A stretch of 64,000 nt of DNA. Source: Deuterostichococcus epilithicus (taxonomy: Eukaryota; Chlorophyta; Trebouxiophyceae; Prasiolales; Stichococcaceae). Numbering within the stretch: position 1 is the first letter of the stretch; each line of letters opens with the position of its first letter. A program made the translations under genes and the position numbers. Shown in pieces: positions 19,201 to 36,778 of the stretch. The DNA is taken from contig JAVTLE010000015.1 in the NCBI GenBank assembly GCA_033439295.1, forward strand, positions 1 to 64,000, in the 5' to 3' direction. The notes under the pieces are model-generated. The model was not told the DNA's origin. It saw nothing but the letters and a program-made list of their open reading frames with translations, and ran no database searches.

Positions 19201-22200
19201 CGCCACCCTTTCTGAACAACCTCGTGCCTCGGCTGCGCGCAGCGAGACGCGCCTGTTTGAGGTCAGCGCCTGCTGCGGCGGCCTGACGGACGCGACGCTT
19301 GCGGAGGTCGCCCAGTACCTGCGCCTGCTGGCGTCCATGGCGCCTGGGGCGCCGACCAGCATGGATCCGGCGGTGCCGGCGCACGACGGAGACGACGCCG
19401 CGACCGATGACCAGCTGCTGGCGGTGGCGCCGCCGGCGCACCGCCTGCCGGCCGAGGAGCTGCCGACGGGTCCGTGTGCAGCGTGCTGTCGAGTACTGCA
19501 TGCGCAACTGACCTGACCTGGTGCTTGCGACAGGCACCAGCAGTGGCGGCAGCGGTCTGCTGCGCCATCAAAGAGATGCTGTCTGTGAGAAGCGTAGCAT
19601 CCTCCAGGGGGCTGCCGCTCGGATGAGGCACAGTGTACATGTTGTTGTTGTTTATTCGCGTGCGCTCCCCACAGTCTGGCAGTGTGCGGTCCAATCATCC
19701 ATCCCTGTGCCCACGCTAAGGCATCGGCCGTCGGTGGCCGCGCCACTGCTGGTCTTGTCGCAGACACCGATATGCAGTCCTGCTGATCAGCACCATCTTT
19801 CTTTGCCTGCGCAGCCGGCTTTGGCGTGCTGCGGGTGGCGGGCTGCGCCCGCCTGGGCCGCCCTGGCTTGGCGGCGCTGTCTGCGGTCGGCGCCTTTGCC
19901 CGCCTGCGCGAGCTGGACGTCTCTCACCTCGACGGCCTGTGGGCCAAGCCGGTGAGCCGCTGTCGTGCGTCAGATGACGTGTGCCACGACCCTGCTGCCG
20001 TGCTAGCCAACTTCCAATAGGGATCACACGGTGGTGCGGTCATCGTCTTCGGTTGCATCTTGTCTGGTCCTGTAAAGCACAAGGCCGCCTGCAGGCTGTG
20101 CTGTGTCTCACCATGGCAGGCCTGTGTGCGCGTGTCAGGAACAACTGCAGCGTGTTGTTCCTGGGCATGCTCACATGACTTGTTGACCGGCACACCGCGC
20201 ACCACGCAGGCGGGCGTCCTGTGCGAGATTGCGGCATCGGCGGGGCGCCACCTGACCAGCCTGCGCGCTGACGGCTGCTCCGTCAGCGACGCGGTGCTGG
20301 GCGCCCTGGCGGGGCACTGCCCCAACCTGGCTACCCTCAGCCTCGTCGGGTGCCGCGGCGTCACGGACGCCGGGCTCGCCGCCATCGCTGCTGGCTGCCC
20401 CAGGTGCCGTTGTCGACACTTCCTGTACCAATCAAACAATGCAGCACGTGGTGCCCAATAGCGTCCAGGTCTTCGCAAGGTTCTCGCATCTGGAGTTCGC
20501 GAACATGGGAAAGGGCAATTGGCAGCAGGACTCGTCAACTTGGGAGGGCCTTCGTGAGACTATGGCACCCCAGTGCACAATGTGTGGCATGCGGACGGCT
20601 CTACCGGAGCTGGCGTGGTCTGATGATGCAATCCTCGTGGACCCAGCAGGCATTACACCGCCATCTGTTTGAAACTTGAACGAGTGTTCACTGGAAGCAT
20701 TGGGCAACCTGCGCTGTGTCTGCGCACCTGGTTGCTCACTGTGTTCAGCTAGCACTCGGGGAGTCTGGCCCATCAGTTGGCCTGCATTGACCATGGCACC
20801 TCAAACGGTCGCCCTAGTTGCGGTTGCGGCCCCATTTTGCGTCCCCGCACTGCCACGAGCTGCATCAAGGCACCAGCTCTGTCTCTCTATCATGGTACCC
20901 GCAAGCGTGTTGGTGACCGGTCCATCAGCAGAAATGCCACCGGGACACAAGGTTTGCCAGCAAGCGAACTATAAGCTGGACCAGAAAGCAGCGGCCCTCG
21001 CCTCCTCGATGCAGTGGCCTGGCCAACGTTGAACACGTTTGCTCTGTTTGAACCACTGAGAGATGGCATCCACTTTTCTCCTTGTAACGTGTGTCAGGAA
21101 TGGGCAGCTGTGAACTGGTGCTTCTCTGGCGCGGAGAGGTCATCCTGGCTAACGGACTGGGTCGACAGCCGAAATTCCAGTTGATCACGTTCTGACTCAG
21201 GAGAGCTAGACGCTGGCCTGACCACTTCGTCATGGCTGCAGGCTGAGCGAGCTGGCGGTTGGCGGCGGCTCGGCACTGCTGTGGCGCGAGGATGCGTCAC
21301 TGCCGGGCTTCACCGCCGTCACCTCGCTGCGCCTCGCACGCCGCAACCACCTGCAGGTATGGTTACCAATACCTGGGGAATGATGAAATATAAACTCGGT
21401 GTTTGGATGCGACAGATATGCCTGAAGGAGTACAGCAGATGTGCGAAGCTGTACCGAGGCCGTTCGCTGATACGGATCGCGTGCGCCAGTTGCGCTGGGT
21501 GTCAGTCGGCCGCTCTGTACCGATGTGGCTCAGGACCTGAGGACTTCGGACCAGTTGAAGTGAGTGTCTAGGTGTTCGCACTTCTCTGAAGTGGCGACAG
21601 CCTGCAGCCAGCAGCCGCTCTGCTGCCACCACCCTGCATAGGCAAGGTGTTGGCATCATGGCCGCCCTGCCGCATCCGATCGTCCGGCCCCCACAAGTAC
21701 GAAGCAAGCAAGCAAATGTGCTGAACAGGACGCGCGGCTGGTGGCGGCGCTGGAGGCGCTGCCGCAGCTCAGCTCCCTCACGCTGGCCGCCTGCGCAGAC
21801 ATCACTGACCGCACCCTACAGGTATCAATAATATTGTCCTGGTCGTTGCTTTACCCTGCAACCTGCGACATTGACACCGCTGTCTTGATTCTTCAGCCCT
21901 TCTGCTAGAGATGCCGCGTTCAGCCGGTTTGAACCCTTGCCTCTGGGCTTGGTGTGTGGGCGCGCGTTTTGTTCACCAGCCGCTGCCATTCGGACGGATG
22001 AACACCGCATGCATCCTTGCTGCCCGCAGGCGCTGCCGCTGGGGCTGTCGCACTTGCACCTGTCTGCCTGCGAGCGCCTGTGCGGCGATGGCCTGTCGCG
22101 CCTGTCCGGCCTGCGCAGCCTGCGCCTGTCTGGCTGCCCCGCCGTTACTGAGCCGGCAGTCCAGGTACAGTCGAGATTGCTGGCCTCGCCAATGCGTGGT

Positions 22201-23772: not shown

Positions 23773-24797
23773 TCACAGCGTCCAAGTCATGGAGTTTGCG
23801 GAGATCAGGACGTCCAGTTCGCGCTCCGCCGCCGCTTCAGCTGCATCAAGCGCCTGCCGTCGCTGCTTACCCTTGAGCTGCACAGGCTCTGGCACCTGTA
23901 TGGCGCAGTAGGGGCGGACGCTAATCAGGGTTTGGTTAGGGGCAGAGGGCACCTCCTGCTGCTGGCAGCGCCTCCGCGCAACCGCGATCCGGAACCGAAG
24001 CTGCGGTGAAACTTGCACGCGTAGCAGCTCAGTTCAGGTCGCACCAGATGCAGGAGATGTGCTCCAGCACGCTGCGGCGACTTTCTGCAGCGCTTGTTAG
24101 CCATGCGGTGACAGTGGACTGCCTCCGACATCGAGCAGGACCGCAGCTCTCTAAGTCCACTCTGATCAACCCTGCTCGACAGTGCGACCCTCTCGGTACA
24201 TGTGACTGCTCCTGCACACGTGCAGCTGCGCTCACCCGCGCACGAGCGCGCGGCACGGCCCGCGGCGAGTCGCCGTCAGAGTCCTCCTCGCCGGCGGCGG
24301 CATCGGCCGCCAACTTCATGGAGGCCTGCCGTCCGCCAGAGCGCAGCACGCCTCGACGCATGCCTGTCTTGCGGCCGCGCCTGCGGTGTCGGCACGAAGG
24401 CAGTCAATCACTGCTTCAAACTCGTACTGTACACCGCATGCTGCAATGCGACGCGATGCAATGCGACCACGGTGCTTTACGGAGGGATGCGCCAGCAGCT
24501 CTTGCGATGACAGGTGTGCCATCGCGCAGACGACATAGCGCAGCCGACTCACTTCACGTTGTCGGCGGAGGTGGACTTGCTCTGCGCCGCGGCAGTGGCC
24601 GCGGCCAGGGCGGCTCCGGACACTGGCGCTGGCGCCGAGGAGATGCGATCGCTGATGGCATCCTGCATGACCGCCTCCAGTCGCTCTGCGCTGCTGCTGG
24701 AGAAAGGGCTGAGCAGCATGCCTATACCTGCAGCAAAGACCATGTTTAGCACATCAGCCAGCTTTACAGCCGAACGAGGGGAGGGAACACGCGTCAT
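23773..24797 (-). CDS. Hypothetical 205 aa protein
   Basis: Three exons with perfect phase: 24553-24797, 24236-24380, 23773-24000. Not recognised. Visible parts: a mildly hydrophobic N-terminal stretch LADVLNMVFAAGIGMLLSPF (about residues 12-31), an Ala/Ser-rich linker, a basic region KRGRKTGMRRG that could be nuclear or organellar, an acidic patch GEEDSDGDS, and a C-terminal helix AAEAAAERELDVLISANSM. The start is the only ATG giving this chain. The stop at 23773 is natural, not at a splice site. I infer a real gene from the three consistent joins (AA|GTGAGT, CGG|GTGAGC). Confidence 0.5.
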
Positions 24798-25008
24798 GAC
24801 TGTCTCGCCGCTTCATTCAGGTGCTGTAACGCGCAGTCGTTGTCAGGGTATGAAGCGGCACAACGTATCCGGTATCTAGCGGCTGATGATGTGCGTCACA
24901 GCGTGTGCTTCAGTTTGGGAGCGCCCCGTTGCCAAGGTTCTGCCTTGGCACAGCGTGCCTGGAACACAACCCCCCCCCCTNTTCCCGGGGCATGCAGAAT
25001 GTCACTGA
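24798..25008. other. Intergenic with an assembly ambiguity
   Basis: Short spacer with an N at 24981 next to a C10 run. The kinase gene's 3' end and the small gene's promoter lie here. The N suggests a patched or hard-to-read position, so the exact 3' end of the kinase gene is uncertain. Confidence 0.4.
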
Positions 25009-28000
25009 TCAACTAGTCTGCGCTGCTTCGGCATTGCCACAGGCGAGCTCCATCTCAGGAGGTGTCTCACCTTGGGCCGGTAGGCCCTTGCGCCGCTCGT
25101 CGCCGCCTGCCAAGCCCAGGCTACGCCTCGAATCCGGCACTGGTGCGGTGTTGTAGATGGAGTAGGGGTTGTCTGCGAAGTCTTCCACCTCCACATCGGC
25201 TGCCCGGCCCGCCGATGGCGGCAGAGCAGCGATTGCCTCGGGGGTGCGGAACATCGCGTAGATGTCTGAGCCAGAGGAGGCTGCCTCGCTGGCCGGCACA
25301 GCGGCTGCGCTGCGGCTGCTGTGCCCGCGGCCGGGGGGCCGAGGTATGGCGGCCGCGGCACCGGGAGCAGGCTGCGAGAACTGCTCGTAGATACTGGCGG
25401 AGGCCGCCTTTGTGCGAGCGGAGGGGGCGCCACCAGCGGCCGGGCCTGAGAACGCGGCATACAGGTTCGGCACTGACGCCGCCTTCGAGGATCCTCCACT
25501 GTCTGCCGCCGCTGCGGCGGCCNCCGCAGCGCCCGCGGGCAACGGCAGCGCAAACGCCTCGTAGGGGTTGCTGCTGGAGGGCGGTGCCGCTGCCGGCGCT
25601 GCTGCCGGTCCGTTCGAAGGGGCCAGGCCAGGCGCCGGCGTCAAGGCGGCGGCAAAGAGGCTGTACGGGTTGTCTGCGGGGGCTGCGCTGACGCTGGCGC
25701 CAATGCCTGCCCCTGCGGCCGCTGTGAAGGCCTCGTAGGGGTTATCAATCGGTGGTGCGCTGCGGGAGTGGCCTGAGCTGAGGATGGGGCGGCGGCTGCC
25801 GCCGCGGCCGCTGGCCAGGCGGCCCGGCGCACTGCTGGAGAGGCCCTCCTGCTCGATGCTGATGCGCGGGCGCAGCTCGAAGCCGGCCTCGCGGCTCTCG
25901 GCATCGGCGCTGCAGAAGGACACGTGATCTGTCAGCAGCTGCAGGACATGCCTCGAAGAGGCAGCGGCCACGAGCGGCAGCAGCGCCTGCACCACTCTGA
26001 TGCGCATGCAGCATCTGCATCCGCTGGGTCTGCGCCGTGTGCAGCGTGCATCATGCTGTGCATGTTGGCTGCGCCGTTGCCACTGGCGCATGCAGCCTGA
26101 GCACGACAGCGCGTATCAGGCGCGGGCGGCATACAGCAGCACCAGGTGAGGCTTCTGACGATGCGGGTCCTTGCGCTGCACCAAAGACCAGAGGCGCAAG
26201 TGGCCACCTGGCAGCCAGGAGCTCGCCGTCTCACCTGGTTGGGCCGTCGGCCTCGGCGGAGGCGGCCGCCGGCAGCGCAAACATGGCGTAAGGGCTCATG
26301 CCCTCGTCTGCCCGCCGCCACAGCGCTGCCGTGCGCGGCCGCTGCGACAGCTCCGCGCTGCGCGCCTTGGTGCTGCTGAAGGGCGCCTTCAGGGCTTCCT
26401 GGGCGACCGGGCTGCGTGGCGGTCGCAGCAGCAAGTCGGCGCTGCGCGACTTGGTCCTGCCCGCCTTTGACAGCGGGCTGCTGCCCTTGGCCGCAGCGGC
26501 ATCGTCGGTGGTGGCGGCGCCAGCAACGCTGACGGGGGCACGCGCAGCTTCCGCGGGCGGTTTCGGGCTGGCACCGGCGCTGGCGGCGGCAAACGCGGCC
26601 GCAGAGCGGAGGTACAGCTCCGCCGCATTGATGGAGCGGCGGGCGCCAATGGTGACTGCCGCGGCCACCTCCTCTTCCGGGATGCCGCCGCCGCCGCCGT
26701 ACATGGCCTCGGCGATGCCGCCGCTGCCGAGCGACAGCACTCCCGGGATGCCGCTGCCGTTGCGGCTGCCGATCCCGGAGCGGCCGCCCGAGCCGGCACG
26801 CAGGGGCGTCTCGCCTGCCGCAATGGCGGCGTCCGACAGCCGCACGAACGGGTTGCCGTCGGGCACCGAGGCGGCCTTGAGGGGGCTGCTTGCGGCAGAG
26901 CCGGGGCGCGAGGGCCTTGCGTCTTCCCGCGGGCTGCCCTCAGGGCTGCCGCCGGCCGCGACTGCGTCGCCCGCAAGGCTGCCGCGGCTGCCGCGCCGCG
27001 GCGGCAGTCCCTGCCCCTGCTGCCTCTGCTGCCGGCGCCGCCGCTCGGCTGCGGCCGCGCCGCCGCTGGTGGAGAAGCGCGCGAGTGGCTGCGGTCCCGG
27101 GCGCAGGGCGAACAGCGCGTACGGGTTTGCCGCGTCGCCGGCGGGGCTGCCACTGCTGCCGGCACTGCCGGCGCGCACGCCATTGCTGCCGGCGCTGCTG
27201 GCGCGCAGCTCCTCGTCCGCAGCGGCGGCGGCCTCTGACGCCTCGGCACCGGACAGCGTCACCGCCGAGCGCAGCGCGAACAAAGACGGCAGCTGCCCCT
27301 TTGGCAGCTCGTCAATCGTCACGTCCGGCCGCGACACGCTGCGCAGCGGCAGCTGCTGCTGCTGCTGCTGCTGCTGCTGAGGCGGCGGCCGGTGCGGCGG
27401 CGCCTGCTCCTGCGGCGGTGGCCGCTGCACCTTTCCGTCCATGCTCGCGCGCAGCACCGCCGCGGCCGCAAAGGGCGTCTGTGGCACCCACCTGCCGCCT
27501 GACGGCCCGCCTGAGGGCCCGACCTGCGAGGCGAAGGGCTGCCTTGCGGCGGCCGCGGGAGCCGCCCCGCCGGCTGCTGGCCGCCCTGGGCCGCCCGCCG
27601 CTGCCTCAGCCACCCGCTCCACCGCCAGCTCGTTGGCGGCCTGCAGCCGCCCGCCTGCTGCCAGGGCGCCGGTCGCTGCACGGCTGNGCGCCNCGCCTGC
27701 TGCCGCACTGCCTGCTGAAAGGGCTGCGGCCGGGGCGCCGCCGCTCTGGGCGGAGGACGCATGCTGCGCCGCATGTTCCCGCGTCGCCGCCAGGAACAGT
27801 GTGTAGGGGTTGCTCGAGGCGGGCAAGCTGAGAGACGCCACGCTGGCGGTCACGTCACCGGCGTGGCTGCCGCCGCCACGATCGGCAGGGGCCAGACTGG
27901 CGCCCAGGGCAGCGCGCCCTGCCGGCGGCGGCTCAGCATCCTCCGACTGATGGTGGAACGGCTCGCTGAAGCCAGCAAAGGGGGAGGGCGGCTGCGGCGC

Positions 28001-28323
28001 CGGCTGGGGCGCCGCCGCGGGCTGACTGCCCACGCNGCGGGCGCCCGAGCCGCCGGCCGCGCCGCCGCCGTGCTGCCGCTGCGCCTCTGAAGGCGGGCGC
28101 CGCGGCTGGCCAGACGGGCTGGNGGCGGCGCCATGGGTCTGGCGCAGTGTGGCGCTGGGTGATGGCGGGGCGGGCGGGGAGGCGCTCCCGTCCGGCTGCA
28201 GCCCGGAGCCATCGCGGGTGTCAGCGGCGGCCTGCGCCTGGACGTGCCCCTCACGCATGCCGGCCAGGCCGTCGGAGGCGGCCAGCAGCGCGAGGTAGGG
28301 GTTGCCGCCCGCGGCGTCGCCGC
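25009..28323 (-). other. NPYxxF-type short-motif array in the kinase tail
   Basis: The two last large exons encode about twelve spaced copies of a short motif: GNPYLALLA, SNPYTLFLA, ANPYALFAL, GNPFVRLSD, MSPYAMFAL, DNPYEAFTA, DNPYSLFAA, SNPYEAFAL, PNLYAAFSG, ASIYEQFSQ, SDIYAMFRT and DNPYSIYNT. The consensus is [N/D/S]-P-Y-x-[A/L/M/I]-[F/L]-x-x, separated by 40-200 residues of low-complexity sequence. Regular conservation of a short aromatic motif inside otherwise drifting sequence points to a binding site for a partner, or to kinase substrate tyrosines; that is inference. Confidence 0.8.
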
Positions 28324-31300
28324 CTGCGCGCGTTTCAGAGCGCAGTGGGCTCGGGCCCCATAGTCGACCAGGCGGTGCTCGGGCCTGGCGAATGCGGCGG
28401 CGGCTGCGGCGAGCATGCCGCATGAACAAACGGACACTGGCCCAGGCGCCCCAGCATGCACGGACTGGAAGCAGCAACAGCAGCATTGCAAGCCCTGAGG
28501 TTGCAGGCACAGCAGCATTCCAACTCACTTGAGGCTGCGCGCAGGCTCGCCAGGTGGCCGGCAAGCGCCTCGCTTGGCACCAGCGGCTTGCCGGACAGGA
28601 TCGGCTGCAGCGGCAGCAGCATGCCGCCGGGATTGGGCCCCAGGTTGCTCAAACGGCGCACGGTCTCGCGGCTGCTGTGGCGGCTGAGCGGCGGGCCGCC
28701 CGAGCGGCGGGGCGCAGGGGATGCTGCGGCCGGCGGGGCGGAGGCCACCGGCTGCCGCAGCAGCGGCGGCGCAGCGTTCGGGTCGCCAAGGCTGCGCCGC
28801 GCAACGGTGCGCCGTCCGTCCATCGCCTCCAGCTGGTTGATGTCCAGCGGTGTCTCCAGGCTGCGAGGGTGGACAGAGCGGGGTCACAGCTGCAGCGGTT
28901 TCCATTTGCATACCGCTCTGAATGCACGGTGTTGCAGAGACTGTCCTCTTGGGTTGGATGCTGCCACTCAGCAGTCTGCTGGAGAGCCCTGACTTCAGGC
29001 GTGTGTGGTGTGCGCCAAGGTGGCCCCAGCAGGCCACCGATGCCTGGGTCTTCGCCTCCGTGAAGCCTCCATGAAGCTGCAGCAACAGGTCTCGAGCCTG
29101 CCTGCACGGGAAGGGCAGTGCAGACCTCACTGCCCTCACCTGCGGCTGACGCGGCGCACGGGCGCGCTGATGCGTCGGCGGCTGCCGCCTGCTGGCTGGC
29201 TGGCTCGNCGCACGNNCCCCCGCGGCGGCAGGCGCGCACCAGAGTCGCCGCCGCCGCCGCCGCTGTTGCCGGCTGGCGTCGCTATTGGCGTGCCGTCGGC
29301 TGACAAGCGCACGGTGCCAGAGCGCCTCGCCACCGAGAATGCGGCGACCGCGGGGTTCACGCCGCCTGCCCAAGCCAGCACGGTAGCGATTGATGCCCGC
29401 ATCCGGTGGGTTGCAGACCAGCCAGCTCATGAGGAGAGCAGGTGGATGTGATGACAGAGCCTTCATCGTGCAGACGTCCTGGTGCCGAACTGCCACAGAT
29501 GGCGAGAAGCGCGCTGAGGAGTCTGCACGGCCAACTGGCATTTGCTCCGCAAGCGGCACACCAGTGTTACACTCTATGCGTGCAGAGCATCATTCGCCAT
29601 GTTTAATGCTGCCAGAGGAGCATGCAGTCCGGGTCGGCATCATCCTCGTTACTAAGATTCTCAAAGCCACGCTACAACAGGTCGACCGCACAACGACACT
29701 CATACAGAGCACCAACGAGACGATGCTGCACTGCTCACCCATTGCAGCCCAAGCTGCGGGCGCGCTGCCCCGGCGGGAGCCACTGTGCCTCACCCCCACT
29801 TCCTGCGCCCGCCAGCTGCCAGGTGCCGCATTCCAGCTGGACTGTCGGCTGCCACCTCCGCCCGCTGCAGGGGGGCTGCTGGGGCTGGACGTCTGTGAGA
29901 AGCCGCTCAACGAGCGGTCGAGAGGTTCTTCGCCGCCGCCGCCGCCGCAGCCGCCGCCGCCGCCGCCGCCGCCAGCCGCGTCTGCGCATGTACGCACTAC
30001 TTCGCTGAGAAAGGGGTGGCGAGGACAGGCTTCCGGGTGCCGGCGTGGCCGGAGGGCGCTGCTGCAGACGGGCTGGCAGACTGCCCACATTGGATCAAGG
30101 CATGCACACAAGGCCAGCGTCGTGTTTGAAGGGCCGCCCTTGTCCGCATCACGCAGCAGGCGGCTTTGCAGATTGTGACCGATTCACCGCCACTGGTTGA
30201 ATCAACTGGCACACACAGTGATGAGGCCTGGACGTGCCTGTGGGACCAGGCCAAGTGGATGTTGCAGGTGAGTCGTTTTTCTTCCTCTCACGAGGTTCAT
30301 GGCACCTCACCTCCCGAGCCGCCGGGGGAGTTGGTGCCGGAGTTGTGTGAAAACACGCTCGGCGGCGGCGAGGGCGCCGACAGGCTCGAATGCGCCCGCC
30401 GCAGCAGCATCTCGCTGATGTTGGGCTCCGCGGGGCTCGCCGCGGCGGCCAGGGGCAGCGCGGCGGGGGCCGTCGCCGCGGCCAGGCCCGGCAGCCCCGC
30501 AAGCGGCAGGTCGGGCATCGCCGGCGCCAGCGCCAGCATTGGCGCAGCCTCGGCCTGCAGGGGGCAGGAGGCTGAGATGTTGCACAGCCAGCGATTGACT
30601 CGCCAGCAGAGCAGCTCGTGAGGCTGTGACAGCAGTGCAGGCGGGGCCGGATCGCAGGCCGTGAGTCGGCACCTGCATGCGGTCAAAGATCTCCTTGGCA
30701 GTGGGCCGCTCCGCGGGCGTCGGCCGCATGCACTCCTTGATGAGCGCCGCGATGCTCGTCGGGCACTGCTCCGGCACCTGCGCGCGACCGGTCACGGGTC
30801 GGCAGACCACCCCCATGTGCACTGCCTGCGCTGCAGTTCCCATGCCGATGCCAGGAAATGGGGGAGAGTGCACGGCTCCGGCACAGACTCGAGCTCGTTG
30901 CACCTGCCGAGGCTGCTGCAACCCCATGATGCTCGGCACACAGGCTGTGCTATGAGAAACGCTCGAGTCAGAGTCAGAGCTTCACTGCAGCAGCCAGGGC
31001 AAGACGCGCGCCTTGGGAGCCCACAGCCGGCCCCGGTTTGGCGCCTCGCCCGTGCAGATCTCCCAAAGCACCACGCCAAAGCTGTAGATGTCCGCCTGTG
31101 CAGGGAGGAGAGGTGAGGGATCTGCCTGCCATGCTCGGCTTTGGCAGCAGAGGTGATGTCGATGCTGGGACTAAGCAACAGCAAACTGCTTGTGACATGC
31201 GCGAGGAGCTGATACAATGGCTGAGCATGGTGGGGCACTGGGGAAGAACTCGCCTTTGTGTCCCAGTCAGCGCCGAGCAGCATCTCGGGCGCGGCATACG

Positions 31301-34300
31301 CAAACGTCCCCACTGTGCGGGCGCACATGCGGGCGTCTCAATCGGCCGACCCACAGTGGCATGCGCGGGACCCTGGAGCCGGTGCCACCAGCAGGGTGCG
31401 GCGCTGCATCCCTCGCAATGCGGCACAGCGCAGCGGGCAGGGCAGGGCTGGGCCGGCTCAGTCCAAGGCGTGCAGCCGACAGCATCAGGGCTGGGAGAGC
31501 AACCAAGGGTTTGGGGTTTAGAGCCGCAAGTACGCACGCGTGACGACGGCGTTGCTGTGCTCGGGGGCCGCCAAGACGCGCGCCACGCCCACATCGGTGA
31601 TCTTGGCCCAGCGCCCGGTGATGAGCACGTTCTGCGCCTTCATGTCGCCATGCGTCACCTGTGGCGGGCGTCAGCGGGAGGGCGGCTCAGTCAGGCACCG
31701 CCGCAGGGTGTACTCGTGTCCTTCTCACCGCGTACCAGGTCTGCAAGGCCGAGACTGTCCTGGCGAGGAGCACGGCAAGCCTGCATCGTCAAGGCTCCCC
31801 AGCTGCTGGGGGAGGTCGACTCAAACACCCCGCTCTGCCGCCACCCTGATGGCCTTGCACAAGATGTGGACGGACTCCTGTCCACTTCGGTCCCTCTTTT
31901 GAGTGCGCATGGAGGGGGACCTCACCCCCGACTTGTGCAGGAAGTGCAGGCCGCGGGCGACGTCCAGCGCGATGTGCTGCCCGGCAGCGTACCAGCCCAG
32001 CCGGCGCTCAACGCGCGTGGCCTCCGACATCTCCCGGTCCGCCGTCAGCGCGCGCCTGCGGCGTCATGTGTTCAGGGTCAGCGTGTTTCGGAAGATGCCT
32101 GCTTGGACGCCTCAGGGGCGGAGCCCGGCACCTGCTGCCGCGTGGCAGCTGTGCGGCTGCTGGCTGGCGATCAGGCTGTCAGCAGGGTACGGGGCAGTCA
32201 GCATCAGACTGCGGGCAGGCTGTCCACTGACCTCCTCATCCATTTCATGCCACACTCTGCTGTCTACTGTCTGATCTGCTGGTGTCCCAGCCCATCCCAC
32301 AAGTCAGCCTCACCGCACGTCGCCGCCCTCGCAGTACTCCAGCAGCAGCATGGGCTCATTGGTGGCGGACTTGAGGCATGCGCCATAGAACTGCACAATG
32401 TTGCGGTCGTAGCTGATGGACTTGAGGATGCCGATCTCCTGCAGCAGTTTGGCAGCGGTGACAGCGTCTCAGCATATGTCACCCTTCCCAAGACAGCGTC
32501 AGTGGGCAGGTGGATGAGCAACTGGCCCTGTTGGTGCTGCTGATTCTCGAGCAGGCACCGCTGAGAGGCGCGGGGATGGCGTCATCGACGGCCGGTGCTG
32601 ACTGACGAACGAGTCGTCTGCGCACCTTTTGAAAGGCGGTCAGCTGGTCCTCGTCGGTGCACAGCAGCACCTTGACCGCCACCTCCTGCACGCCCCCGCG
32701 CAGCGCCTTGTACACCTGTAGCAGTCGGAGAAGAGAGGTCATGGGACCTGTCCGACAGAGCACTGACCCAGGCCTGGTCGCAGGCGGCAGCTGGCGGCGC
32801 CGCCGGGTCGCTGCGCAGTGCGCTTGGGTTTGGGGCAGATGGGTGCACGGAACTACAGCTGGGACCCATGTGGTCGTGGCGCTGCGGGTACGCCCCGCCG
32901 CCTCCCTCGCGGCGCCGCATTGCAGGGCCTCTGGGCTCAGGGCACAGGCTGGGGCTGCAGCACTGGCCCATGTGAACTTCGTCGCCCCATTCCAGCACTG
33001 CTGAGTGGGAGCGCCCCGCACCTTGCCGTAGCTGCCCTCGCCAAGGAGCCAGTCAGTGCCGTCGGGGCGACGGCAGAACTCCACCTCCGATGGGTCCACA
33101 AACCAGGACTGGATCTCCAGGTCTATGCCCTCCATGACTGCCATATGCGGTCCCGTCTCCCGCACTGCAAGAGGGATCACCATCGACAGCACATCAGAAG
33201 GTGGGCCCGAGATGGGAACGTGGAGTTTCGAGCATCGGGGCATCATGAAAATGCCCTCCATGACCGCCACGTGAGGTCCGGTCCGCCGCACTGCAGGAGG
33301 GAAACACGGGCAGCTCAATGCATCGGTGCATCGTCTGAGCAATCGGTTTGTTGTCCTTCTTAGTACCTACTCGTGCCCAAAGACTGCAGGAGGTGGCGCA
33401 TATCTAGGTGACGAAGTTTCAGGCTCGCATGTCAGGGACATCCGCGGCTGTTGGGCGGGGTGACAGGTTGCTGGAGCTTCGTAAGCAACACGGACGCTTG
33501 CCTGAGGAGTGAGCGCGCTATGCACAGCCAAGATGACGATTGCGGACCTGACTGTGACGAGAAGCGGGCCGTTGCAGCGACCGCCTGGTCGATCGCGGCG
33601 TCCGCCGCAGCCGGCGCAGCGCTGTTGACATGCCCATTGCAGTTGATGCAGCGGCCGCCCAAGGCACCATCGCCATTCATCGCTGCGCTTTGGATCTTGC
33701 AAGGCCCGTTGCTGCTGCTGCACCCGTTGCTTGCCGCAACCTGTCCCGCTGGCGAGACCTCCGCCGGCCGCCACTGAGTGAAACTCGCGAGCATGCCGGT
33801 GGGGCTCAGGCGGCGCTTGGCAGCCTCCGCCGGCACCGCCATGGCATCAGCCTTGAGCAGACCCACCTGCAGTATCGCATGGATACTTGAGCACTTGCAG
33901 CTTGCCTGACGAGGGGCGAGCTTGCCTGGGATGTGGGGACGACAGAGGACATCCGTACAGACCCCGAAAGCAGCGCAGCAGGGGAAGCCTGCCCGGCGAG
34001 GTCACGGCCTCGACAGGCTCAGCTTTCCGGGAGTGCCTCACCTCAACGTCGCCTCCGCCATCGTTGGCGGCTGCTGCAGCGGCCGCGGCAGACCGCCGTC
34101 CAAGCCAGAAACAGATGAAGCCAACCACCGCGGCCAGAACCGCCATGCCAACCACCAGGCCTGTAACCACATGGCTGAGCCGCTGAGCGGTAGCGGAGGC
34201 CTTCCTTTGGATGGAAGCTGGTTTGGCTGAGCAGGCGCGGGGCCATGACAAGCATGGCATGTCAAAGCGCAACCTCACCCGCAATCCCGCCGCCGTCCAC

Positions 34301-34465: not shown

Positions 34466-35682
34466 TGCTCAGCGCGCGACAAAGTCAGCGCCGCTGCAAG
34501 TGCGTGTGCTCAGCCATGCTGGGTCTCTCGCCGGCGGAACGCTGTGCCTCTTCCGTGTGCACGCGTCGCCTGCAGCTGGTGCCAGGCGCAAAGCCTGATG
34601 CCCAAGCCGAAGCTCCTGCAGTCATGGGTGTGTCGATCTTCAGAGGCACGCCGGATGCGTTCCCCCACCGAGACGCACGCTTTGTAGCAAGTGAGCTGAA
34701 AATTCACTTTGCGCCTTGCATCAGCGCTGCAGCAGCAGCCCTGCGTTCAGCTTGTCGACCCAGGAGTAGAAAACATCCCGTGCGAAGACGCACGCCGGAC
34801 GGAGAGGGGGGTGCCGGTCGCTTGTACACAAACACGCAGACACACTCTTTCAATCGTAGTCAGCAGGGACACACGGGCCGATGCACCAGACATGCCGAAC
34901 CTGAAATGTACCACCACTTTGTCAACGACTACGACAGCACCCACGTTCGGGTCGAAGGAGTGGAAGCCCCTGGCCAGCGGGGCACACCCACTGCAGACAC
35001 AACTTGTATCTCAGGATTTGGAAACACGCCTTCGAGGCGTGGCACAGGCCTTCGCCAAGCCGCAAGTGTGCAATACGACGCCGTACTCGTGGCTCCCCGT
35101 TGGCGCGCTGAGTGTGACTCGCGCAAGAAAGGCGGGGTTGATTCGGCGTTGGGAGGAGTGCGTCATGCATGAACTCGGTGCACAACCGGGCGATCGCCAG
35201 ACGCCGTGCCGGGCGAGGAAGACAGTCCAGCAGGGAATACGTCATCCCCCCTGCTGGCTGACGAAGGGAGACGGAGGAGATGGTACAAGTGTACAACTCT
35301 GCCATCCGAGCCAAGCCAGAGAAACCCTGGCTCCCCTCCTCACAAGAGGAACTGGGCCCGTGCAAGACAGTAACTGGGCGTTGAGGTTGACTGGTCATGA
35401 AGCTAATGACGAACAAGTCCTTGCAACATGGGATCCTGCTGCTGCTCGACCGAACAGTTGGCAATGCCTGACAGGCAATGATGAACCAGACATGAATAAC
35501 GTCCAGCAACAATCTGCGAAGTGCTCTGATGACCCTCCTCAAAGCCTGATGGTGTTCCATCGCAGTACGCAGCTGCCCATCATGGGTAAGCAGTGTCCTC
35601 GCAACCACCATGGGCAAGCATCGTGCGCCGCCATCACGTCTTGGCGCATCAGTATGCCCGTTAGGGAGACTGCACGATGCGC
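34466..35682. other. Kinase 5' flank and CP12 3' flank
   Basis: Both neighbours are on the minus strand. A 364-codon plus-strand frame (34709-35803) crosses this stretch but runs antisense into the last CP12 exon and has no domain; see rejected items. The true content should be the kinase promoter and CP12 3' UTR. Confidence 0.4.
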
Positions 35683-36778
35683 TCAGTCCTCGTACACCCT
35701 GCAGAGTGAATTGTGCTGCTCATGCACTGCCAAGAAGGTATCATACAGATTTGGTGAGAATGACGACGTGCGCCAACATCATGGCAGCCCTCACCCACTC
35801 TGAAACAGGAGGCGCACAAGGTATATGTGGCTACATTTCGGGGTAAGAGTTTCCAGAATGCATTTTCGACCAGAGAATTCGATCCCACGTACCGGCATTC
35901 GTCTGCATCCGGGTTGTCCTCGCAGTATTCTTCCAGGACGTCCTTCTTGTTGGACTGGGCGGTGGTGCGCTTGTCGGACAGCGCTGCACTGATCTCCTCG
36001 ACGTCGTCCCACGCGTTGGCGCACTCGCCCGTGGAGCCGCCCTCGCACGTCTCGCGCGCGTTGTCGATGGCTGTCTCCACTGCGCTCTTGTCCTGCGGCC
36101 CGGGAGGGTGCAGCGCTATGAAGCTGCAGGACTTGATGGCAGCACACGGCTGGAACATGTGCTCGACGAGCCCACTGCCCCTCGACGAGCACACTGCTCC
36201 ACCTCCCACTGAACTGGCAGTGCGCAACATCTAAATGCTGCACGGCCTATCAAGTGCAGGGAGTCAAGGGCCGCGATCTAGATGAGTCTTAGTCTGATGC
36301 TCGACTGCAGGAGCCGGTGTGTGGGTCCGAGCATGAGACGGGTTGATGATACTGGCCTGTGATGCAGCAGGGAAGGGTATGAGATGCTGCCATAGCACAG
36401 CCCGAACCCCCCAGCTGAGACCATCGATCAGGATGCAGGGTCCCCGGAGATCACCGCAACCCTCAAGAGCTGCAGCGCGGCTGGCCCGTGACTGCGAAGG
36501 ACATCTGCCAGCAACTGCATGAGCAAATCTGAAAGCTGCCGCACGCCAGGCGCCTCCGCTCTTGCGAGCCGCGCGCGACTTCACAAAGCTCATGATGAGA
36601 GTTCCATGCTTCTGCCAGGCCAGCTGCCACGCTCGAGGAGCCTCACCGGCGTGGCCCGGACTGTGTGGATGCGTCGGGCCTGCACGGCCACACGGCCCGC
36701 TGGCTGGGGCGCGGCCGTCCGCTGCACGCGCACGGCGCGCAGGCTCATCACTGGTGCGGTGGTCGCCATGGCTGCCAT
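35683..36778 (-). CDS. CP12: Calvin cycle regulatory protein CP12, plastid precursor
   Basis: Three exons, exact phases: 36647-36778, 35893-36092, 35683-35698; 115 aa. Exon 1 is a plastid transit peptide (MSLRAVRVQRTAAPQPAGRV). The mature part has both redox cysteine pairs, Cys60-x7-Cys68 (TCEGGSTGEC) and Cys101-x8-Cys110 (YCEDNPDADEC), the AWDDVEE core motif and the short C-terminal tail VYED, which comes from a 16 nt last exon. CP12 is a disordered linker that, when oxidised in the dark, joins GAPDH (via the C-terminal tail) and phosphoribulokinase into an inactive complex in the stroma; thioredoxin reduction releases them. Nothing is missing. The start is the first in-frame ATG; a second Met at residue 4 is possible. 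Confidence 0.95.

Follow-up and report, generated by a model that had tools for sequence, protein, structure and literature searches.

Divergent tails of three transmembrane TKL kinases of the green alga Deuterostichococcus epilithicus retain what looks like a multivalent [N/S]-P-Y-x-x-F docking array

The genome of the green alga Deuterostichococcus epilithicus encodes three transmembrane TKL kinases whose tails look like a conserved multivalent docking array, the conservation being that among paralogs of one genome. In each tail, a short tyrosine motif with the consensus [N/S]-P-Y-x-x-F is repeated about 9 to 13 times. Our main reading, to which we assign a probability of roughly 0.4, is that the tails would act as a multivalent trafficking or endocytosis signal read by the medium (mu) subunit of a clathrin adaptor through YxxΦ recognition. 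One of the three genes lies in the window, as we call the whole stretch of 64,000 nucleotides that was analyzed (contig JAVTLE010000015.1, positions 1 to 64,000); the two others are referred to as paralogs A and B. The array offers a clear example from nature of a short linear motif that has persisted in many copies amid changing disordered sequence, here joined to a membrane kinase from a lineage whose receptor-kinase signaling is little studied.

Eighteen exons on the minus strand, between window positions 34174 and 23773, join into a single open frame of 1,826 residues that is closed by a final stop only (Table 1). The other two frames of the join hold 21 stops each, and those of the six-exon tail taken alone 14 and 12; the exon ends were chosen with the open frame in view, so the support that the frame lends to the model is partly circular. 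Every one of the 18 acceptors ends in AG, and the donors are GT in 15 of 17 cases and GC in two (after K6 and K7), those of the five exons before the last (T0 to T4) reading GTGAG. The encoded order is a hydrophobic segment, a TKL-type kinase and a tail about 1,390 residues long. The gene begins at about 34.2 kb or further upstream, the 5' end of the first modelled exon not being settled, and its 3' end is most likely at 23773, beyond position 25009, where the first-pass annotation had let the tail end. Of the stretch delimited there (25009..28323), 28323 is the exact start of exon T1, an intron occupies 26234-25910, and the stop at 25009 is intronic in the 18-exon model. TGTAA, the algal polyadenylation word, occurs on the minus strand between 38000 and 22001 only at 29571 and 24768, both intronic in the model, and none lies behind the inferred 3' end in that range; in paralog A it is found once behind the tail (C12:1503949). 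The last exon, T5, contains an ELDxLM-like block common to both paralogs. A separate tail gene behind the kinase was considered and is unlikely, because the kinase-tail order recurs at three loci and an open spliced frame joins the two parts.

Table 1. Exons of the window gene, motif copies in its tail and clusters of NPYxxF matches in the genome (positions are those of the window unless a contig is named).
Feature	Position	Strand	Basis
Exon with transmembrane segment (HVVTGLVVGMAVLAAVVGFICFWLG)	34042..34174	-	open frame; hydrophobicity by eye
Putative juxtamembrane exon	33548..33866	-	open, in frame
Kinase domain, eight exons	30673..33164	-	PK_Tyr_Ser-Thr 3.5e-45; two GC donors
Kinase exons	33164-33022, 32715-32626, 32438-32314, 32055-31926, 31658-31538, 31312-31254, 31095-31012, 30777-30673	-	
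Linker exon L1, Ala/Pro/Ser-rich, behind kinase	30311..30554	-	open frame
Linker exon M2, in-phase bridge from L1 to T0	29140..29365	-	open frame; ambiguous bases inside
Tail exon T0 (LETPLDINQLEAMDGRRTV...)	28529..28860	-	open frame
Tail exon T1, six motif copies	26235..28323	-	open frame and motif count
Motif copies in T1 (first base)	NPYLAL 28303, SPFAGF 27985, NPYTLF 27811, NPYALF 27127, NPFVRL 26854, SPYAMF 26296	-	
Tail exon T2, seven motif copies	25071..25909	-	open frame and motif count
Motif copies in T2 (first base)	NPYEAF 25743, NPYSLF 25671, NPYEAF 25569, NLYAAF 25467, SIYEQF 25395, DIYAMF 25266, NPYSIY 25170	-	
Tail exon T3 (GIGMLLSPFSSSSAERLEAVMQDA...)	24553..24727	-	open frame
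Tail exon T4	24236..24380	-	open frame
Last exon T5, ends AAEAAAERELDVLISANSMTWTL-stop	23773..23895	-	open frame
NPYxxF cluster, window gene, 5 matches		-	genome pattern search
NPYxxF cluster, paralog A, 6 matches	C12:1500443-1502989		genome pattern search
NPYxxF cluster, paralog B, 4 matches	C12:4318612-4321397		genome pattern search

Several other features of the locus were recorded. Two near-identical exon heads stand in tandem on the minus strand, at 33290-33243 (VRRTGPHVAVMEGIFM) and 33164-33117 (VRETGPHMAVMEGIDL), the second of which opens kinase exon K1; the pair may represent an exon duplication or alternative exons. The window contains nine ambiguous bases, all of which (24981, 25523, 27687, 27693, 28036, 28123, 29208 and 29215-29216) are in the G+C-rich tail region. 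A CP12 gene (PF02672, E 2.1e-20) is located directly upstream of the kinase gene, on the minus strand at 35661-36230, and a neighboring gene on the plus strand (20021-20461) gives a weak leucine-rich-repeat match (PF13516, 17.6 bits, below the cut-off).

The joined kinase exons (33164-30673) match PF07714 at 3.5e-45, with 154.8 bits against a Pfam cut-off of 23.1, and score about the same with PF00069 (2.5e-45, 155.4 bits); in a single-exon scan, two of ten pieces gave a kinase match. By eye, the domain contains the glycine loop (GEGSYGKV), the lysine (VAVKV), the catalytic Asp and Asn (HGDMKAQN) and the metal-binding Asp (DVG), with HGD and DVG in place of the usual HRD and DFG. The hydrophobic segment lies upstream in the same frame, and similar segments precede both paralog kinases, all as seen by eye. 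Among solved kinases, sequence similarity is highest to MAPKKKs (MLT, MLK), one tyrosine kinase, CTR1 and plant receptor kinases, BRI1 among them. Across the genome, a Pkinase scan gave 146 exon matches.

Motif copies were counted in the 995 residues of tail encoded between 28323 and 25009 after removal of the intron, and compared with 4,000 shuffles. NPYxxF occurs five times against a shuffle mean of 0.00025, [NDS]PYxx[FLMI] seven times against 0.024, and [NDS][PIL][YF]xx[FLMIY] 13 times against 0.14, the shuffle maximum being three; Yxx[FLMIV] occurs 10 times in the window tail, with a shuffle mean of 1.9. The full 1,390 residues behind the kinase hold the same 13 copies and the same 14 tyrosines, 11 of which stand at the tyrosine position of the motif. 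Two window copies have Phe for Tyr (SPFAGF and NPFVRL), and three have Leu or Ile for Pro. At the level of sequence, the array is thus far beyond chance and shares one open spliced frame with the kinase. The first-pass annotation had described about twelve copies of a short motif persisting in the drifting, disordered tail of a transmembrane TKL kinase; the 13 copies bear out the number, and the 18-exon frame and the two paralogs bear out the rest.

Recent DNA duplication was rejected as the source of the window array, because none of the three small repeats reported by Tandem Repeats Finder in 24900-28400 covers a motif copy and the codons of the copies differ synonymously. Copy starts are 24 to 228 residues apart. 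Aromatic residues dispersed in this way through a low-complexity tail would also suit stickers, motifs by which an Ala/Ser/Gly/Pro-rich tail condenses or self-associates without a specific reader. The fixed N-P before the tyrosine and the Phe at +3 exceed what stickers need, however, and we consider this explanation highly improbable.

In the 46.8-Mb genome, the DNA pattern of NPYxxF gives 51 matches, as compared with 48 for a reversed control. This is hardly an enrichment, and only clusters matter: all 51 matches were examined, and 15 of them fall in three clusters (Table 1), of which those of paralogs A and B are each preceded, on the same strand, by a kinase with a hydrophobic segment. A looser pattern gives 442 matches versus 1,121 in the control and proved uninformative. 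NPFxxF gives 72 versus 61, one of them in paralog B, and forms no cluster, no pair among the 72 lying within 3 kb. When a kinase piece of paralog B was used as a genome query, at least 24 matches were obtained, grouped by hand into 20 places, and among the matches listed the top three are paralog B, paralog A and the window gene. Within 10 kb downstream of the 17 other kinase places among the matches listed, no exact NPYxxF is present; looser arrays were excluded for six of these 17, where none was seen in 5.5-6.5 kb of downstream sequence (ORFs of at least 100 residues). A region of 90 kb (C10:505000-593200) holds eight related kinase matches at seven places, with no exact NPYxxF nearby.

In the three tails (window, A and B), the latter two trimmed by eye, YxxF occurs nine, eight and six times, against shuffle means of 0.30, 0.43 and 0.24, respectively. 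In paralog B, a tandem unit of 60-66 bases covers some of the copies (L012:2932-3110), and the array there may still be growing by local duplication.

The three kinases are 63.5% (window-A), 66.4% (window-B) and 70.8% (A-B) identical. With the motif masked, shuffles align as well as the tails in 43 of 60 cases for window-B, in 14 of 60 for A-B and in one of 60 for window-A, which places the last alignment at the edge of the shuffle range. With the motif kept, window-A scores above all 60 shuffles and A-B above all but two, and for window-B 26 of 60 shuffles are as good. Since the masked tails barely align while the kinases are 63-71% identical, the tails appear to have largely diverged with their motif copies kept. 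The conservation proposed as a check on the first-pass annotation is therewith found among paralogs of the same genome, as the array is present in A and B though the tails barely align. Among 32 copies from the three tails, position -2 is Asn in 22 and Asn, Ser or Asp in 31, position -1 is Pro in 27, position 0 is Tyr in 28 and Phe in the other four, and position +3 is Phe in 25. These frequencies describe the motif rather than test it: the pattern itself guided part of the choice of copies, one of them (DDMYTRF) was chosen by eye, and the limits of the A and B tails were likewise set by eye. The persistence of the motif in a drifting tail and its recurrence in two paralogs make a docking role the natural reading.

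As regards candidate readers, the genome contains one EH exon (PF12763, 42.1 bits). A P-loop stretch adjoining it looks EHD-like by eye; the EHD label is unconfirmed, because a Pfam scan of this putative GTPase piece, which was wrongly joined, gave no family. The adaptor mu domain (PF00928) is represented by ten exon matches at four places, one of them below the family cut-off. These EH and mu matches prove only that such exons are detectable in the genome. SH2 (PF00017) and PTB (PF00640) domains, at E 0.001, and the I-BAR (IMD) domain gave no match in the genome, in searches whose controls were prokaryotic and none of them positive.

The preference for tyrosine might reflect a phosphotyrosine array, in which the kinase or a partner would phosphorylate the tyrosines of the copies and effectors would be recruited, as in animal receptor tyrosine kinases. 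The tyrosine of each copy had indeed been proposed as a phosphosite, which agrees with the Tyr of 28 of 32 copies, and with the gathering of most window tail tyrosines (11 of 14) in copies, but not with the Phe of the other four; phosphotyrosine is thus not needed by every copy. One tyrosine kinase is among the closest solved kinases, but most of the best matches are Ser/Thr kinases (MAPKKKs, CTR1 and plant receptor kinases), and the SH2/PTB search, a weak one, as no control was positive, gave no match. We regard a phosphotyrosine array as quite improbable. Little credence, likewise, is given to a layout resembling receptor tyrosine kinases in which about ten near-identical, phospho-switched tyrosine sites on the kinase would be read by an undescribed domain specific for N-P-Y-x-x-F. 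If the reader were a phosphotyrosine reader, the array would amount to an independent invention of tyrosine docking. Docking to a PTB-type domain, as had also been proposed, is not supported: the motif is NPYxxF, not NPxY, none of the N-P-x-Y cores of PTB ligands was seen by eye in the 1,826-residue model protein, the core of the array being N-P-Y, and the same weak search, with its prokaryotic controls, found no PTB domain.

The Asn-Pro-aromatic core, together with the EH exon, suggests in turn that the copies could be NPF relatives that an EH domain, or some other receptor of NPF, reads in vesicle transport. According to an excerpt of PMC12808100 (2025), EH domains can also bind DPF, GPF and NPY, and SEC23/24 binds NPF; excerpts of two further sources describe multivalent binding of Phe motifs of disordered Dab2 to Eps15 EH domains (PMC12370899) and a double NPF that controls internalization of SCAMP5 in Arabidopsis (PMC8144573). 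The earlier proposal of EH-type docking is sustained by these points to the extent that one EH exon exists and NPY can be bound. It fits less well with an array that prefers Tyr: EH domains chiefly bind NPF, whose core occurs once in the window tail as compared with seven NPY, and the Tyr in 28 of 32 copies was counted against a plain NPF reader. NPFxxF, moreover, forms no cluster, the Phe at +3 lies outside the NPF core, and the EHD label is unconfirmed. EH-type docking is therefore judged unlikely.

A somewhat better case, still a doubtful one, can be made for a dedicated scaffold or effector, as opposed to a trafficking adaptor, that would bind [N/S/D]-P-Y-x-x-F as a short N-capped helix or turn, so that the kinase gathers a signaling partner in many copies. 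Asn, Ser or Asp at -2 (31 of 32) and Pro at -1 (27 of 32) would suit a helix N-cap or an Asx turn. Single-sequence AlphaFold models of 299 residues of the window tail and 290 residues of the paralog A tail are disordered, with mean pLDDT of 44.1 and 49.5, respectively. In the window model, helix is limited to residues 57-64 and 216-218, which, mapped by hand, coincide with the first NPYEAF and with DIYAMF, respectively. This helix over the motif is suggestive, but it is confined to two of seven copies at very low pLDDT and is not repeated in the A model, where none of six copies is helical. Nor does the scaffold have a candidate reader domain. Outside the copies, the paralog A tail (L010:203-1072) is predicted to form a long helix at model residues 224-265, at moderate confidence (block means up to 85), and visual inspection shows Ala-rich stretches somewhat like it in the window gene (INAAELYLRSAAAFAAASAGAS) and in B.

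With modest confidence, we prefer a YxxΦ-like array that serves sorting or clustering to phosphotyrosine docking. The three transmembrane TKL kinases carry a long disordered tail, presumably cytosolic, behind the kinase domain, and each motif copy in it would dock the same partner weakly. Many copies would provide avidity, by which the receptor could be captured, clustered or sorted as a unit. An adaptor mu subunit would be the likeliest reader, a specialized reader being possible given the Asn-Pro before the tyrosine. Four points favor the mu subunit: Tyr is preferred, position +3 holds a bulky hydrophobic residue, the protein is anchored in the membrane, and the genome contains mu-domain exons. 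Y-x-x-[LIMFV] is present in the window tail, on what the kinase suggests is the cytosolic side of a membrane protein. Several points count against it. To our knowledge, YxxΦ readers do not demand Asn-Pro before the tyrosine, and the Asn in 22 and Pro in 27 of 32 copies are left unexplained by a mu reader. Hundreds of residues separate the copies from the membrane, Phe replaces Tyr in four of 32, and the window and B tails align no better than shuffles even with the motif kept (26 of 60). In plants, an excerpt of PMC7253699 describes the YxxΦ motif as important for internalization of several plasma-membrane proteins and the association of BOR1 with AP-2 as independent of its YxxΦ motifs, the latter being counted against the YxxΦ reading. 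The motif is specific enough for direct peptide fishing of the reader, and if that reader is an adaptor, the array would represent multivalent sorting control of an algal receptor.

"NPYxxF" was not found as a word in the open-licence literature, and titles and abstract openings in that literature contained no description of a kinase tail with such an array. The window gene resembles plant receptor-like kinases (BRI1, FERONIA) and CTR1/MLK-type TKL kinases in the sequence of its kinase, and differs from them in the motif array and the length (about 1,390 residues) of its tail; we know of no comparable tail in either group. Animal receptor tyrosine kinases, which have docking tyrosines in their C-terminal tail, share with it the transmembrane kinase and a tail of repeated Tyr sites, whereas here the kinase is TKL-type, a single motif is repeated and a weak search gave no SH2/PTB match. 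The I-BAR domain of IRSp53/IRTKS likewise recognizes an Asn-Pro-Tyr tripeptide, the NPY motif (ELM LIG_IBAR_NPY_1; PMC7145657), although the motif as described lacks the +3 Phe of the array. With NPF/EH systems (Dab2-Eps15, SCAMP5-AtEH1/Pan1), the array has in common an Asn-Pro-aromatic core, disorder and multivalency, but it has Tyr for Phe and an extra Phe at +3 and sits on the receptor kinase itself. Finally, like the YxxΦ signals of clathrin-adaptor mu subunits, it has Tyr at 0, a bulky hydrophobic +3 residue and a place on the cytosolic side of a membrane protein; unlike them, it comprises about ten copies, mostly with Phe at +3 and Asn-Pro before the tyrosine, attached to a kinase and distant from the membrane.
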